From: Pseudomonas prosekii
Lineage (GTDB): Bacteria; Pseudomonadota; Gammaproteobacteria; Pseudomonadales; Pseudomonadaceae
Direction of reading: 5' to 3'
DNA length: 64,000 nt
Assembly (NCBI RefSeq): GCF_900105155.1
Contig: NZ_LT629762.1
Location: 3,387,001 to 3,451,000 of the forward strand
A model generated the notes under the pieces. That model had not been told where the DNA came from and made no database searches. It was given only the letters and a program-made list of their open reading frames with translations. Positions 4,610-45,131 of the stretch are shown one piece after another (positions within the stretch are counted from its first letter, which is position 1; the number at the start of each line of letters is the position of its first letter). The position numbers and the translations under genes were made by a program.

Positions 4610-5380
4610 ATGAGTACAAAAGTCATCAGCTTGGTGTCCATCGGCGCCCACCCGACCTCCGGCCGCCCGCGCCGCGCCGAGCAGGATGCGCGCGCGGTGG
4701 AGCTGGGCCTGCAACTGGCTGGGGATAACCTGCAAGTGCTGCATGCCGGCGATGTCGCGGAACCGGCGTTGCGCGCTTATCTGGGCATGGGCCTGGCGCA
4801 ATTGCACGTGCTCGAGCAACCGGACGGCGCCGACGCGCTGCCGGCGTTGAGCGCGTATTTGCGTGAGGCCGGGGCGCAAGTGGTGCTCACTGGTAGTCAG
4901 GCGGAAACCGGCGAGGGCTCGGGCATGTTGCCGTTCCTGCTCGCCGAAAGCCTTGGCTGGCCGCTGGTGGTGGGGCTGGCCCAGGTTGAATCCATCGACG
5001 GCGGTTCGGCGCTGGTACTGCAAGCGTTGCCGCGCGGTCAGCGGCGTCGCTTGGAAGTGCGATTGCCGTTCCTCGCGACTGTGGATAACGCGGCGCCGAA
5101 ACCTCGGCAAAGTGCCTACGGCCCAGCGCGGCGTGGGGTGCTGGAAGCGGACGAGGTCGAGGTTGTCGATGATGAATTGCTCAGCGTCGCCACTCTGCAA
5201 ACCGCCAAACCACGGCCGAAACGCCTGAAAGTAATCAAAGCCAAAAGCGGCGCCGACCGCATGAAAGCCGCCACGGCCAAGGCCAGCGGTGGCGGCGGGC
5301 AAGTGCTCAAAGGCGTGACCGCGCAAGCCGGGGCCGAGGCCATCCTCAAATTGCTGATCGAAGAAGGCGTAGTTCGCTAA
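4610..5380 (+). CDS. Electron transfer flavoprotein beta-type subunit of the dgc operon
   Basis: 256 residues with the ETF-beta layout: VSIGAHPTSGRPRRAEQDARAVELG at the N-terminus (the family has VKRVP...N..D..A.E.AL here), then a mid-protein VVLTGSQAETGEGSGMLP with LGWPLVVGLAQVE, as in nucleotide-binding ETF beta. The C-terminal 60 residues are a Lys/Ala-rich tail. It starts 15 nt after the alpha gene, with GGAAGGA before ATG, so it is cotranscribed. It is the last gene of the dgc operon; a REP cluster follows directly. Confidence 0.8.
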   Translation: MSTKVISLVSIGAHPTSGRPRRAEQDARAVELGLQLAGDNLQVLHAGDVAEPALRAYLGMGLAQLHVLEQPDGADALPALSAYLREAGAQVVLTGSQAETGEGSGMLPFLLAESLGWPLVVGLAQVESIDGGSALVLQALPRGQRRRLEVRLPFLATVDNAAPKPRQSAYGPARRGVLEADEVEVVDDELLSVATLQTAKPRPKRLKVIKAKSGADRMKAATAKASGGGGQVLKGVTAQAGAEAILKLLIEEGVVR

Positions 5381-5396
5381 ACCCGCACACAAACCC

Positions 5397-5689
5397 CTGT
5401 AGGAGCTGAGCTTGCTCGCGAAGGGGCCATCCCATCCAACATCAATGGCGCCTGACCCACCGCCATCGCGAGCAAGCTCAGCTCCCACAGGCCATCCCAT
5501 CCAGCATCAATGGCGCCTGACCCACCGCCATCGCGAGCAAGCTCAGCTCCCACAGGGCCGGTGGGTGTACACAAAATTTGTGACCACCGAAAACCCCTGT
5601 AGGAGCAAAGCTTGCTCGCGAAGGGGCCATCCCATCCAACATCGATATCGCCTGACCCACCGCTTTCGCGAGCAAGCTCAGCTCCTACA
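5397..5689. repeat. REP cluster (GAGCTTGCTCGCGA type), about three elements
   Basis: Alternating direct and inverted copies of ctgtaggagctgagcttgct / agcaagctcagctcccacag, separated by loops that share ccatcccatccaacatc. One half-unit (about 65 bp from ccatcccatcc through ctcccacagg) is duplicated in tandem at about 5487-5553. Confidence 0.9.
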
Positions 5690-5699
5690 AGAATTTGCG

Positions 5700-6340
5700 T
5701 GGTAGTGGGTTTATGCACAATCCCTGTTAGCGTATCTGTGGATAAGGTGTTCGCGCTTCGCCGCAGCCCTTGTGCTTCGCGCCCTGCAGCCTCTCGTACA
5801 AAAAACAACCAGCCTATCTCACGGTTTTTCCTGGCTTTTTCTTTGGGATAACTCTGCTCGATCATCCACACTTGCCCCCAATCTCTGTTGGCGCTTCTGT
5901 GGATAAGATGTTCGCTGTCCGCTGCACGCCTTATAAATCGGGCCTTACACGTGATCGATCAATAAACAACCAATTCAGCCTTTTCCCTCCGAAAATCTCC
6001 CCCAACCCTGGATTTACCGCCACAGTCAGCGGTTTTCCACAGCCTAGCCAAAGTTGCCCCCAAACTCTGTTAGCCCTTCTGTGGATAACATGTTCGCCAT
6101 CCTCTGCAGGCTATACAAACCGTGCCTTGCAACCTTTCGATCAAAAAACAACCAATCCCGCTGTCAAAGCGTACTTCCGAATAAGTCACGGTTTTTATTC
6201 ACTATTTATCGATCATTTCTCGGGAGCACCCTCAGTTGTCCCCAATAGCTGTGGGTGGTCTTGTGGATAACTTGTTTGCGAAACCCCACAAGCCACGCTC
6301 CGTATAGTCCCAGACGCAATAGATCAAATTTCGTACAGTT
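5700..6340. repeat. Four-fold module with perfect DnaA boxes
   Basis: TGTGGATAA (complement TTATCCACA, the consensus DnaA box) occurs at 5737, 5898, 6080 and 6262, giving spacings of 161, 182 and 182 bp. Conserved sequence lies before each box (TTGCCCCCAA, then CTCTGTTRGC in most copies) and after it (TGTTCGC). An AT-rich word related to GATCAAAAAACAACC begins 59-61 nt downstream of each box start (5798, 5957, 6139; GATCAAATTTC at 6322). No protein-coding ORF is convincing here. The role is unknown. It resembles the box-plus-AT-rich layout of replication origins, but neither dnaA nor rpmH is present. Confidence 0.75.
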
Positions 6341-6570
6341 CTAAAGCACTCCCGCGTCCCGTCTCGCTTCAGTCCGCCAGGACACGCTTGAGCGACAGCA
6401 ACAAAACCACCATGGAAGTTATCGCCAATGGCCCTGAAAATTCTCTAGATAACTCCTTATAAGTCTATAAAGGCACATTGACACATGGTGGCTTCAAGAC
6501 TTAACTGTCACTGGCAAAAAGCACTGGACGGAATACCATTGCGTACTCGCATTTCTCAAGGAGAGAGATC

Positions 6571-6639
6571 ATGGAAACTTACCGCACGACCTTCGTTTGT
6601 CTGCCGCGCTATAACCGATATCTTCTTCGACTGGATTAA
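6571..6639 (+). CDS. Possible 22-residue peptide (METYRTTFVC...)
   Basis: A very good ribosome binding site (AAGGAGAGAGA) sits just before ATG at 6571, opening a 22-codon frame that ends TAA at 6639. The peptide is basic and aromatic (METYRTTFVCLPRY, then NRYLLRLD). It lies 167 nt upstream of the first of the two paralogous orphan genes. It may be a leader peptide or an independent small protein. The overlapping longer frame at 6485-6694 has no comparable ribosome binding site. No homologue is recognised. Confidence 0.4.
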   Translation: METYRTTFVCLPRYNRYLLRLD

Positions 6640-6806
6640 ATCCAAATCTGCCGTTGCACCAACGGCGGGATTCACTGCGTTTATGAATAGATAATGACGC
6701 CTACCAGCGTTCACGTTATTGCGTGCGCGGCTGATCTGTTAAAACAGTCAGCTCGGCGGTGGCAGCCAATCGTGTAACTAACTTCTTAACAATATGGAGC
6801 ATTGTC

Positions 6807-7580
6807 ATGAGTGTTATCGAAAGCCATGTAGAACGTCTGGCCTGGATCTCGAAACTTGAAATTCCAGAAGCACCGGCCGCAGTAAGTTCTCGCGAAAGAT
6901 CAGCAGTGGTGCGTGCCAGTGCCGATGAGAATGGCGCGGCGGTGGTCAAAGGCAGTGTGGTTTCTTTTGTGTCAGGGCTTACTGATCAAGCCCGCGACGA
7001 TGTGCAGAACAGCACGTTGTTGATGCAACTGGCGGCTGACAAGAAGTTTGATCCGGATTCGCAGAAGCAGGAGTGGTTCAAATTTTATACCGAAGGTCTG
7101 GCGAATCTGGGCTGGGGTCGTGTATCAAGTGCTTACTCCGATTATCAGCCAAAGAATACCGATGTCACGATGGACCAGGTGGTGCTGGAAGTTCTCGCAC
7201 AGGTGGTGGCTCCCGAGTCAGCCCTGTATCTAGTGGTGGCGCAAACTTTCGAGGCATTGAAATCCAATCCGAATAATCAAGGCGCGCTGAAACTCTTCGA
7301 CAACAGCAGCACCAAGAGCGGCACCGGCACCTTCCAGATCCTTCCGGTGGCGCAGGACACTGGCGGTAACGTGATTATGGTGCTGACGTGCGTCAACGCG
7401 ACGACGACGGTGCAGTCCGGCAGCTTCCTGTTCTGGCACTGGAGTTCATCATCGTCCCGGATGTACCGGGCGGCGCAACAGATTGTCCTGAACGAATCGG
7501 TGTATAAACAGGTTCGCCAGGCTGTTATCGACAAGCTTGGTGATAACGCCAAAAACTTTGTCAAAGACCTGGATATTTAA
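6807..7580 (+). CDS. Protein of unknown function, paralogue 1 of a tandem pair
   Basis: 257 residues, not recognised. Start at 6807 (MSVIESHVERLAW) because TATGGAGC precedes it; the ORF is open upstream to 6759 without a site. No signal peptide, transmembrane segment or known catalytic motif is visible. It aligns by eye with the next gene: DVQNSTLLMQLAADKKFD near residue 75 versus DVVNSNLLCQLAADKKLT, and VYKQVRQAVIDKLGDN near the C-terminus versus YSAIRQQIIDKLGETN. Both end ...DLDI/...SVDI. Codon use is less GC-biased than in the flanking dgc and gbc genes, which suggests acquisition. A strong terminator follows, so each paralogue is probably its own transcription unit. Confidence 0.8.
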   Translation: MSVIESHVERLAWISKLEIPEAPAAVSSRERSAVVRASADENGAAVVKGSVVSFVSGLTDQARDDVQNSTLLMQLAADKKFDPDSQKQEWFKFYTEGLANLGWGRVSSAYSDYQPKNTDVTMDQVVLEVLAQVVAPESALYLVVAQTFEALKSNPNNQGALKLFDNSSTKSGTGTFQILPVAQDTGGNVIMVLTCVNATTTVQSGSFLFWHWSSSSSRMYRAAQQIVLNESVYKQVRQAVIDKLGDNAKNFVKDLDI

Positions 7581-7656: not shown

Positions 7657-8436
7657 ATGAGCTTGCCTGCCGCCGGAACTTACGTCGTATCAGGTAATTT
7701 GCTAGTCGCTGCGCCTTCGGTAACAAACGACACTGTTGTGCAGGATGTAGTCAATTCCAATCTGTTATGCCAGTTGGCTGCTGATAAAAAACTGACATCA
7801 CGTTTTATTGATCCTGCGGCCTGGCTGGATATGTATCGCAGCTCGTTGGGGAAAGTATTCTGGCAAATAACCAACTCCAATACGATCAGCTACCCTGTGC
7901 CACCGCTGATTCGCTCGTTAACCCTTATGAAGATTTTGCAGGCGACATTTTTCAAGACGCTGGATTCCACTTTGGTAGATTGCATTGAGGAGGGCATTGG
8001 TCTTTGGCTGGAACTGCCTGAGTCCAGTGCGCCTGCGCTTTTGTACAATAGCAAAACCCACGTCGAATTCGAGGTAGAAGAAAAAGTACCGCCAGTGCCG
8101 TCGACAATCTCGGTCATTAATCTGCAACTCAGCGTTGTTCACAGCGGCAGTCGATTGTCCGTTTGCAGTATTTATTTCAAGACGCTTGAGTCGGTCGAAG
8201 CGGATTTGTTTAATCAGAAGTTTGCAGTAAAGGATATTTTGGGCAATGTAAGCGTCAGTTCATTCAAGGCTGAATTGATCGAGTCGAACTATTCAGCAAT
8301 TCGCCAGCAGATCATCGACAAGCTGGGCGAAACCAATATCCGCGAAAATATAATGCTTGTTCCAGCCAATCTCGCGCCTGCCGGAATCGAACTTGATACA
8401 GGCACTCGACAGTTTCTGGACAGTGTGGATATCTGA
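7657..8436 (+). CDS. Protein of unknown function, paralogue 2 of a tandem pair
   Basis: 259 residues, not recognised. AAGGATGATTCGCC precedes the ATG. It shares with the upstream gene the motif around LLCQLAADKK (near residue 45), an aromatic segment (AWLDMYRSSLGKVFW versus EWFKFYTEGLANLGW) and the C-terminal IRQQIIDKLGE block. The middle is strongly diverged and contains two or three Cys not matched in paralogue 1. There is no signal peptide. A 20-residue insertion (LVPANLAPAGIELDTGT) lies before the common C-terminal end. GC content is visibly lower than in the surroundings. Function unknown; old duplication followed by divergence is an inference from the alignment. Confidence 0.8.
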   Translation: MSLPAAGTYVVSGNLLVAAPSVTNDTVVQDVVNSNLLCQLAADKKLTSRFIDPAAWLDMYRSSLGKVFWQITNSNTISYPVPPLIRSLTLMKILQATFFKTLDSTLVDCIEEGIGLWLELPESSAPALLYNSKTHVEFEVEEKVPPVPSTISVINLQLSVVHSGSRLSVCSIYFKTLESVEADLFNQKFAVKDILGNVSVSSFKAELIESNYSAIRQQIIDKLGETNIRENIMLVPANLAPAGIELDTGTRQFLDSVDI

Positions 8437-43327: not shown

Positions 43328-43445
43328 GTGGCGAGGGGGCTTGCCCCCGTTGGGGCGCGGAGCGGCCCCGATGATTTTCAGATCAATCAGATTGGCCGAT
43401 TCTGCGACTGCTTCGCAGCCGAACGGGGGCAAGCCCCCTCGCCAC
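43328..43445. repeat. REP pair (GGGGGCTTGCCCCC type)
   Basis: gtggcgagggggcttgcccc and its inverted partner, 50 bp before gcvR. The rest of 42906-43495 is AT-richer DNA, presumably holding the glcB promoter, with no gene seen. Confidence 0.9.
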
Positions 43446-43495
43446 AAACAACCCGTGCCTATACTTCTTTTTCTATAACAACAGAGGGCTGCGCC

Positions 43496-44014
43496 ATGGA
43501 CCACCTCGTACTCACTGTATTCGCACCGGACAAAGCAGGGCAGGTCGAGCGCATTGCCCAATGCATCGCCGAGCACGGCGGCAACTGGCTGGAAAGCCGC
43601 ATGTCGCGGATGGCCGGGCAGTTCGCCGGGATTCTTCGCGTCGGCGTACCGGCAGAGGCCTATGACGAACTGGTCGATGCCCTGCAAGCGCTGTCCACTC
43701 ACGGCATTCGCGTATTGATCGCCGAAAGCGGCATCGAGCAATCCTGCACCTGGAAGCCGATTGCCATGGAACTGGTCGGCAACGACCGTCCGGGCATCGT
43801 CCGCGACATCACTCGGCTGCTGAGCGAGCAAGGGGTGAATCTCGAACGTCTGGTCACCGAAGTGCGCCCGGCGCCGATGAGCAGCGAGCCGTTATTCCAC
43901 GCCGAAGCAATTCTCGCGGTGCCGCTGACCTTGTCGCTGGACGTGCTGCAATCGCGGCTGGAAACCCTCGCCGATGACTTGATGGTCGAATTGGTCCTGC
44001 GCAGCGAGCCATGA
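43496..44014 (+). CDS. gcvR: GcvR-like ACT-domain regulator of the glycine cleavage system
   Basis: 172 residues made of two ACT domains: DHLVLTVFAPDKAGQVERIAQ at 2-75 and WKPIAMELVGNDRPGIVRDITRLLSEQGVNLERL at 88-170. In E. coli GcvR binds GcvA and represses gcv genes with glycine. The start at 43496 has AGAGGGCTGCGCC before it. The ORF upstream runs through the REP and is not coding. A glycine-responsive role fits the betaine-to-glycine genes elsewhere in the window, but no gcv operon is here. Confidence 0.82.
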   Translation: MDHLVLTVFAPDKAGQVERIAQCIAEHGGNWLESRMSRMAGQFAGILRVGVPAEAYDELVDALQALSTHGIRVLIAESGIEQSCTWKPIAMELVGNDRPGIVRDITRLLSEQGVNLERLVTEVRPAPMSSEPLFHAEAILAVPLTLSLDVLQSRLETLADDLMVELVLRSEP

Positions 44015-44033: not shown

Positions 44034-44180
44034 TTATCCAAGTTAAACGTGCACCTGCCTGTGGATAACCTGTAGAGATGCGCCGCCAGACCACGGCGGC
44101 CGGGCTTCTTCAGGATCTGATCAAAAAACCAGCAGTTTCAACAAGTTGCGCACAAACGGCGGGGATCACGCTGTGGATAA
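44034..44180. repeat. DnaA-box region after gcvR (fifth copy of the box module)
   Basis: Perfect TGTGGATAA at 44060 and 44172 and a near box TTATCCA at 44034. GATCAAAAAACC begins at 44119, 59 nt after the start of the first box, the same geometry as the four modules at 5700-6340. Confidence 0.7.
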
Positions 44181-44199
44181 CCTTGGGAAGGATTGATGC

Positions 44200-44220
44200 A
44201 GGCCACGAGGGACGTGGCCT
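44200..44220. terminator. Hairpin between gcvR and rarD
   Basis: AGGCCACG-AGGGA-CGTGGCCT stem between the convergent stops; no strong T-run. Confidence 0.45.
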
Positions 44221-44243
44221 GTAGAGGTTTGTACGTTTTCTGA

Positions 44244-45131
44244 TCAGCTGCGCCGACGCAAACTGATCACCGCATCGACGCTGTAAATCGCCAATCCCGC
44301 CCAGATAAAGATGAACGCCACCAGCGTGCTGGATGACATGTGTTCGTCAAACAGCAGGACAGCTTGCAGCAGCACCAGGGTCGGCGCCAGGTATTGGAGA
44401 AATCCCAGCGTGGTGTAGGGCAAATGCCGCGCGGCAGCGTTGAAACAGACCAGCGGGATCAACGTTACCGGCCCGGCCGCCACCAGCCACCACGCCTCGG
44501 AAGTGGTCCAGAACGCCGGTTGTGCGCTGGCCGCCGCCGGGTTGAACAGCAACCACGCAATGGCAATTGGCACCAGCATCCAGGTTTCCACCACCAGCCC
44601 CGGCAACGCTTTGACCGGCGCTTGTTTGCGGATCAGCCCGTAGAAACCGAAGGTCAGCGCCAACACCAGCGACACCCACGGCAAACTGCCGACCTGCCAC
44701 ACCTGCTGCGCCACGCCCACCGCCGCCAGACCCACCGCCAGCCACTGCATGCGCCGCAGCCGTTCGCCGAGGATCAACATCCCCAGCAACACGTTGATCA
44801 GCGGGTTGATGTAGTAACCGAGGCTGGCTTCAAGCATCCGCCCGTTGTTCACCGACCACACATACGTCAGCCAGTTGGCCGCAATCAGCGTGCCGCTGAG
44901 CGCCAGAATCGCCAGGCGTTTGGGGTTGTCGCGCAACTCGCGCCACCAGCCTGGGTGCTTCCACACCAGCAACAGCAAACTGCCGAACAACGCCGACCAG
45001 AGCACGCGATGAATGATGATTTCTACAGCCGGCACCGAGGCGATGGCTTTGAAGTAGATGGGGAAAAGTCCCCAGATGATGTAGGCAGTAAGGCCCAGGA
45101 TGTACCCGCGACGCGGGTTGGCGGCTTGCAT
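44244..45131 (-). CDS. rarD: EamA/RarD drug-metabolite transporter
   Basis: 295 residues, ten hydrophobic segments in two EamA repeats. RarD-specific start GYILGLTAYIIWGLFPIYFKAI, then HRVLWSALFG, NWLTYVWSVNNG and ASLGYYINPLINVLLG. Inner membrane exporter with chloramphenicol-sensitivity annotation in E. coli; natural substrate unknown. Confidence 0.9.
   Translation of the reverse strand: MQAANPRRGYILGLTAYIIWGLFPIYFKAIASVPAVEIIIHRVLWSALFGSLLLLVWKHPGWWRELRDNPKRLAILALSGTLIAANWLTYVWSVNNGRMLEASLGYYINPLINVLLGMLILGERLRRMQWLAVGLAAVGVAQQVWQVGSLPWVSLVLALTFGFYGLIRKQAPVKALPGLVVETWMLVPIAIAWLLFNPAAASAQPAFWTTSEAWWLVAAGPVTLIPLVCFNAAARHLPYTTLGFLQYLAPTLVLLQAVLLFDEHMSSSTLVAFIFIWAGLAIYSVDAVISLRRRS

Follow-up and report, generated by a model that had tools for sequence, protein, structure and literature searches.

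A non-coding segment of the 64-kb stretch of Pseudomonas DNA analysed here (the window) carries four copies of a module of about 100 bp, in which three DnaA-box-like 9-mers, spaced as in E. coli DARS elements, are followed by an A-rich word that fits the Fis consensus. We think it probable, though far from certain, that this four-copy array is a DARS-type element by which the chromosome controls DnaA. The case for this assignment is structural and comparative, and draws on the anatomy of the modules, their conservation, their mostly ori-proximal distribution and a sequence match to E. coli DARS1.

Anatomy of the array

The four perfect DnaA boxes (TGTGGATAA, all on the + strand) that a preliminary description had placed 161, 182 and 182 bp apart are present at exactly these spacings, and each is part of one copy of the module (Table 1). 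Box I points rightward, and boxes II and III, 14 nt and a further 12 nt on, point leftward. An A-rich 15-mer starts 59 or 60 nt past the start of box III. That description had located an A-rich word 59–61 nt after the box start; the placement holds (59, 59, 59 and 60), but the fourth word departs from the consensus word it gave. Its lead, TTGCCCCCAA/CTCTGTTRGC, is exact in units 2 and 3 only, with the variants TTATGCACAA/CCCTGTTAGC in unit 1 and TTGTCCCCAA/AGCTGTGGGT in unit 4. The weak boxes I and II of each unit, the two further modules at 44034–44245 and the conservation of the array had been missed.

Table 1 Positions of the DnaA-box modules in the window. Arrows give box orientation.
Feature	Span (strand)	Box I	Box II	Box III	A-rich word	Basis
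Unit 1	5711..5810 (+)	TTATGCACA 5711 (>)	TGTTAGCGT 5725 (<)	TGTGGATAA 5737 (<)	Fis-consensus word GTACAAAAAACAACC 5796-5810	sequence and model matches
Unit 2	5872..5971 (+)	TTGCCCCCA 5872 (>)	TGTTGGCGC 5886 (<)	TGTGGATAA 5898 (<)	Fis-consensus word GATCAATAAACAACC 5957-5971	sequence and model matches
Unit 3	6054..6153 (+)	TTGCCCCCA 6054 (>)	TGTTAGCCC 6068 (<)	TGTGGATAA 6080 (<)	Fis-consensus word GATCAAAAAACAACC 6139-6153	sequence and model matches
Unit 4	6236..6336 (+)	TTGTCCCCA 6236 (>)	TGTGGGTGG 6250 (<)	TGTGGATAA 6262 (<)	Fis-consensus word GATCAAATTTCGTAC 6322-6336	sequence and model matches
Further module A	44034..44133 (+)	TTATCCAAG 44034	CGTGCACCT 44048	TGTGGATAA 44060	Fis-like word GATCAAAAAACCAGC 44119-44133 (6/7 key positions)	
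Further module B	44146..44245 (+)	TTGCGCACA 44146	CGGGGATCA 44160	TGTGGATAA 44172	Fis-consensus word GTACGTTTTCTGATC 44231-44245 (7/7 key positions)	

All four A-rich words fit the Fis core consensus GNNYRNNWNNYRNNC, which is present at 147 of the 64,000 window positions. The motif TTATCCACA, with at most one mismatch, occurs at 26 window sites, against a mean of 5.2 and a maximum of 13 in 100 shuffles. Scored against what we take to be the DnaA-box consensus, boxes I of units 1–4 match at 8, 6, 6 and 7 of 9 positions and boxes II at 3, 4, 3 and 6, these being match scores rather than affinities of Pseudomonas DnaA. The pair of further modules sits between two converging open reading frames (43328–44014, + strand, and 44244–45131, − strand).

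REP-like inverted repeats (5391–5689) lie directly upstream; they belong to another repeat family and stop short of the array. A search of Rfam over 5300–6900 gave no match in the array; its three weak hits, to microRNAs, fall on the REP hairpins. A dyad centred at +38 is the top-scoring one in units 1–3 (0.50–0.56) and tied for top in unit 4 (0.36). It is weaker in outgroup loci (0.34), and E. coli DARS1 scores 0.50, a value reached in 61 of 2000 shuffles. We do not claim a hairpin here, because many of the pairs are broken in many genomes. A consensus fold of the array gave 10 pairs, 2 of them with changes on both sides, but it says little since two of its 15 rows are misplaced and some are shortened. 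With no Rfam match in the array and the pairs of the dyad often broken, an RNA reading was rejected.

Conservation across Pseudomonas

Segment 5690–6760 matched 47 of the 95 genomes searched, that is, 47 of 59 from the same genus and none of 36 from other genera. Within 1.5 kb of 30 such loci, including the window's own, etfB was found in 21 and gbcA in 15, with at least one of them in 28. All 36 etfB and gbcA matches (29 relatives' loci plus the window locus) have their 3′ ends toward the array. In the window the neighbours are etfA, etfB, two unfamiliar genes and gbcA. The unfamiliar genes, adjacent between the array and gbcA (6807–7580 and 7657–8436), are distantly related to one another (25% identity over 226 aa, E 2e-9); they had no match in Pfam, NCBIfam or PHROG, nor in the 29 relatives' loci read.

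When the 30 arrays are aligned, boxes, leads and A-rich words are mostly 80–100% identical and spacers often 30–60%. An exact 28-base module pattern was found in at least 119 stretches, and the 80 matches listed are all from Pseudomonas. Alignment A2 keeps 39 of the 48 rows of A1; unit 4 of L010, which has a 12-nt deletion, and eight other rows were dropped.

The layout was quantified over 120 units (30 loci × 4, arrays with a fifth close box being counted as four units). The forward DnaA-box match peaks 26 nt before box III at 6.67 of 9 (all offsets: mean 2.23, standard deviation 0.89). The reverse match 12 nt before box III averages 4.53 of 9, exceeded among reverse offsets only by those at 0 and +56. 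At the same two offsets, 62 perfect boxes elsewhere in the own genome, 4 of which are module boxes, average 2.69 and 2.66. The preliminary description had suggested scanning relatives for the box and A-rich word as a pair, and this pairing recurs: the Fis consensus starts at +59 in 87 units and at +60 in 29 (116 of 120), the next most frequent offset having 5. In 95 of the 120 units the consensus has an all-A/T centre.

A site for IHF between core and Fis site would be expected of a DARS2-like element. Using what we take to be the IHF consensus, no match of 8/9 or better lies in the window array, and no full-score IHF site is conserved across the array loci. An 8/9 match, AATCCGTGACTTA, is present in 17 of the 30 loci, after unit 3 (13) or unit 1 (4). 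A block like TAAGTCACGGTTTTT, strongly conserved in relatives, follows units 1 and 3 in the window (5817–5830 and 6184–6198). Read as an IHF-like site, it fits 8/9 positions in those 17 loci, though not in the window.

Spread of the module

A sequence-only model of the module, R1, matched all 149 same-genus genomes, with 3–14 matches each (E up to 1e-3). In a sample of 194 genomes from the order (96 genera), it matched 86 (49 genera); 78 of these belong to other families, and most of the 78 have one or two matches each. Our outgroup set consisted of 22 of 29 new loci, with L239–L242, L244, L247 and L250 omitted as belonging to the own genus or family. Boxes I, II and III reach at least 7/9 in 21, 20 and 20 of these loci, and the Fis consensus occurs at +57 to +61 in 18. 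Outgroup triples of at least 7/7/7 number 24 at the 14/12 spacing and none at any other spacing from 9 to 30, in loci picked by R1, whose training contains the layout. Most R1 training rows have a weak box II, and the strong box II of the outgroups therefore supports the layout independently. Neighbour genes differ among the outgroup loci examined. Within the genus, four more genomes outside the R1 training gave 16 triples after filtering (box III at least 7, sum at least 18), and all 16 have the Fis consensus at +59.

A second model, R2, was built from 19 outgroup loci only, all from other Pseudomonadales families (alignment A4; L255, L256 and L263 left out of the 22). It scores the four window modules at 32.5, 31.6, 28.2 and 21.7 bits. 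E. coli DARS1 scores 26.0 bits with 90 of 110 positions aligned (E 6e-7 over 102,587 bases, a rough value from a shortened calibration). The DARS2 core scores 10.3 bits, another stretch of the DARS2 region 16.5, and a piece of datA, the only part of it matched, 12.6; R1 searches of the DARS1, DARS2 and datA stretches reported no match. Searches with either model favour matches having the layout used to build it.

Chromosomal positions

In 15 closed genomes, R1 gave 152 matches (141 in 14 relatives and 11 in the own genome), which form 72 clusters. Measured from dnaA, 65 of the 72 lie within 35% of the replichore and 67 within 50%; for the most part the clusters are loci that recur from one related genome to the next, and the lengths of several genomes were rounded. 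We give these positions as counts rather than as a test because clusters are shared by descent. The four-module cluster lies at 0.16–0.19 of the replichore from dnaA in 9 of the 15 genomes, and the own genome has three clusters on one arm (0.29, 0.20 and 0.19) and two on the other (0.23 and 0.28). As the preliminary description had noted, dnaA is absent from the window; the genome's single full-length DnaA match is at C1:2823409–2824908, about 568 kb off. Perfect DnaA boxes crowd around oriC, with at least 38 of the genome's 143 in C1:2790000–2865000 (38 among the 100 matches listed).

Five genomes have single ter-proximal modules with the 14/12 core (L272–L276) at 0.70–0.94 (E 4e-8 to 1.5e-4). 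In L272, a Fis-like word lies about 47 nt after box III by hand count. A seven-module array, L277 (G041 C1:1113300–1115100), has two kinds of unit that apparently alternate.

The best R2 match in 14 of the 15 closed genomes, and the second best in the remaining one (G032), is a single mid-replichore site, at 0.50–0.67 of the replichore (0.81 in G014). Its boxes score 7/9/7 in 12 of 15 genomes, including the own site at C1:917580, and 8/9/8, 8/9/6 and 7/9/6 in the others. No Fis consensus (at least 6/7 key positions) was found at +45 to +69 in 14 of 15. A second high-scoring R2 match lies 15–21 kb from this site in 7 of the 15 genomes. The own genome has two more canonical DARS-like sites near mid-replichore, about 19 kb apart, at C1:917580–917680 (7/9/7) and C1:898334–898439 (9/9/6). 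The former keeps the word GACGATTTTTTCACC at +60, which does not fit the Fis consensus.

Proposed function and alternatives

The DARS-type reading would work as follows. In each unit the three boxes, arranged like the core of an E. coli DARS with box I facing II and III, would seat a DnaA complex. Fis, whose gene is present in the own genome, would bind 59–60 bp past box III, where it would bend the DNA and place the complex under growth-phase control. DnaA would then most likely give up its ADP, as at a DARS, and be recharged with ATP for the next initiation. Binding of both proteins, nucleotide exchange and an effect on initiation timing are predictions from sequence comparison. The direction of the effect on DnaA is the weakest step: because boxes I and II are weak, the array may recharge, titrate or inactivate DnaA.

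The preliminary description had proposed a locus of the datA/DARS class, away from oriC, that titrates or reactivates DnaA. That class appears to be right, and the layout points to DARS through the 14/12 core and the DARS1 cross-match. The kind of locus, which it did not recognise, has a core of known type; the tandem, multi-locus, ori-proximal form with a Fis word at +59/60 is, however, absent from the literature searched.

Several findings count against a DARS. Beside a perfect box III, box I is a weak match (mean 6.67 of 9) and box II a weaker one (4.53). R2 ranks the DARS2 core (10.3 bits) below a piece of datA (12.6) and below another stretch of the DARS2 region (16.5), R1 matches neither DARS1 nor DARS2, no full-score IHF site is conserved, and the array is placed where datA sits in E. 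coli. Pseudomonas also has the more canonical mid-replichore sites, 14 of 15 without a Fis consensus, which leaves room for a different role of the arrays.

A datA-like locus for titration or inactivation is a serious rival, given the weakness of boxes I and II and a location matching that of datA in E. coli, although we consider it less likely than the DARS-type reading. We call the array DARS-like and do not classify it as a DARS. On the rival view the perfect copies of box III, doubled shortly after initiation at oriC, would soak up DnaA or promote its ATP hydrolysis, and the DARS layout would be a legacy that has lost its role in nucleotide exchange. In its favour, every unit has a perfect box III, the array lies at 16–19% of the replichore in 9 of 15 closed genomes, compared with 20% for E. 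coli datA on the oriC coordinate we assume, and these genomes have further sites of more canonical DARS type at other places. Simple titration would not, however, need weak boxes and a Fis word conserved across 30 genomes. The boxes of datA also lack the 14/12 layout, and no full-score IHF site is conserved in the arrays, a site that datA requires according to PMC5742627.

It is less likely still that the boxes bind DnaA while the palindrome-like 15-mer belongs to a regulator other than Fis. Many of the 15-mers are near-palindromic, for example GATCAATAAATGATC; the separate +38 dyad in units 1–3 suggests that other proteins may bind; and the DARS1-like mid-replichore sites carry a different conserved word at this place. 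Yet the key Fis positions 1, 4, 5, 11, 12 and 15 (as given in PMC4278767) are kept in 116 of 120 units while others vary, and work on P. putida Fis placed its sites by the E. coli consensus.

We regard a DnaA- and Fis-controlled promoter region for neighbouring genes as very improbable. DnaA is also a transcription factor (PMC8203912), and the next window gene, 6807–7580, lies downstream on the + strand. That gene was not seen beside the array in 29 relatives' loci, however, and all the etfB and gbcA matches face the array with their 3′ ends. Modules elsewhere have other neighbours, some of them named by eye.

A decayed replicon, which the preliminary description had entertained, or a secondary origin would fit DnaA boxes repeated in direct orientation as in plasmid origins, but can practically be dismissed: the array is conserved in place across the genus (47 of 59 genomes, with etfB and/or gbcA beside 28 of 30 loci) with its boxes among the most conserved letters, module copies occur at several loci per genome, and no replication gene is among the neighbours examined, dnaA lying elsewhere.

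Returning to the DARS-type reading, we tentatively extend it, with less confidence than we place in the array itself, to a Pseudomonas DnaA cycle run as a distributed network from one DARS-type module. Canonical single sites near mid-replichore would be joined by several ori-proximal clusters on both arms, in which modules have multiplied, box III has been strengthened and a Fis site fixed at +59/60. If so, E. coli would have no class of element like the ori-proximal arrays, which would pair a DARS layout with the position of datA and with gating by Fis, and initiation would be tied to growth phase and to the passage of both forks.

Significance

A non-coding array kept by many Pseudomonas species may help to set the time of chromosome copying. 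Control of DnaA after initiation is largely an open matter outside enterics, DARS work having been done in E. coli and close relatives as far as the sources consulted indicate. DARS-like sites are mentioned for V. cholerae in PMC6090056. For Pseudomonas, the titles and abstract openings searched contained no report of DARS or DnaA-box clusters of this kind, although the original DARS paper (Fujimitsu 2009) or the 2019 DARS1 study may mention the genus. The tandem, multi-locus, ori-proximal arrangement was likewise not found in the literature searched.

The arrays suggest that the DARS1-type module is older than enterics, and they may link replication control to Fis, the loss of which reportedly appears to be lethal in Pseudomonas (PMC4278767). 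They offer defined targets for deletion in laboratory Pseudomonas strains, and their layout around oriC would allow the titration-versus-switch question of DnaA control (raised in PMC12371093) to be asked in a second organism. PMC5612765 and PMC10218098 were also consulted.

Comparison with known DnaA-control elements

For E. coli, the oriC coordinate behind the replichore fractions and the places of DARS1, DARS2 and datA are those we assume. Among related systems, Bacillus subtilis has several oriC-proximal DnaA-box clusters thought to limit free DnaA. Like the array, datA groups DnaA boxes away from oriC (0.20 of the replichore, on the assumed oriC). Unlike the array, it has no 14/12 triple among its boxes, and it requires one IHF site (PMC5742627).

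Both DARS elements of E. coli (sequences from NC_000913.3) share the core of the array. Boxes at L064:1608, 1622 and 1634 in DARS1 (bioD–uvrB intergenic) and at L063:2136, 2150 and 2162 in DARS2 (rppH–mutH intergenic) are spaced 14/12 with box I opposed. PMC5742627, a review, agrees that the spacing is identical at both and that box I lies opposite II and III. In E. coli, boxes I score 8 and 7 and boxes II 9 and 8 of 9, making II the strongest, whereas III is the perfect box in the Pseudomonas array. DARS1 also resembles the array in its dyad at +38, but it is a single copy at 0.66 of the replichore (on the assumed oriC) and lacks the Fis consensus at +59/60.

DARS2 needs IHF and Fis according to PMC4245941 and PMC8682772. 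Its use of Fis is a likeness to the array, though its Fis consensus lies at +119 from box III instead of +59/60, and its essential IHF sites set it apart. DARS2 is, furthermore, a single copy at 0.41 of the replichore beside mutH, whereas the array stands beside etfB/gbcA at 16–19%; for this reason we call the array DARS-like and do not file it as DARS2.
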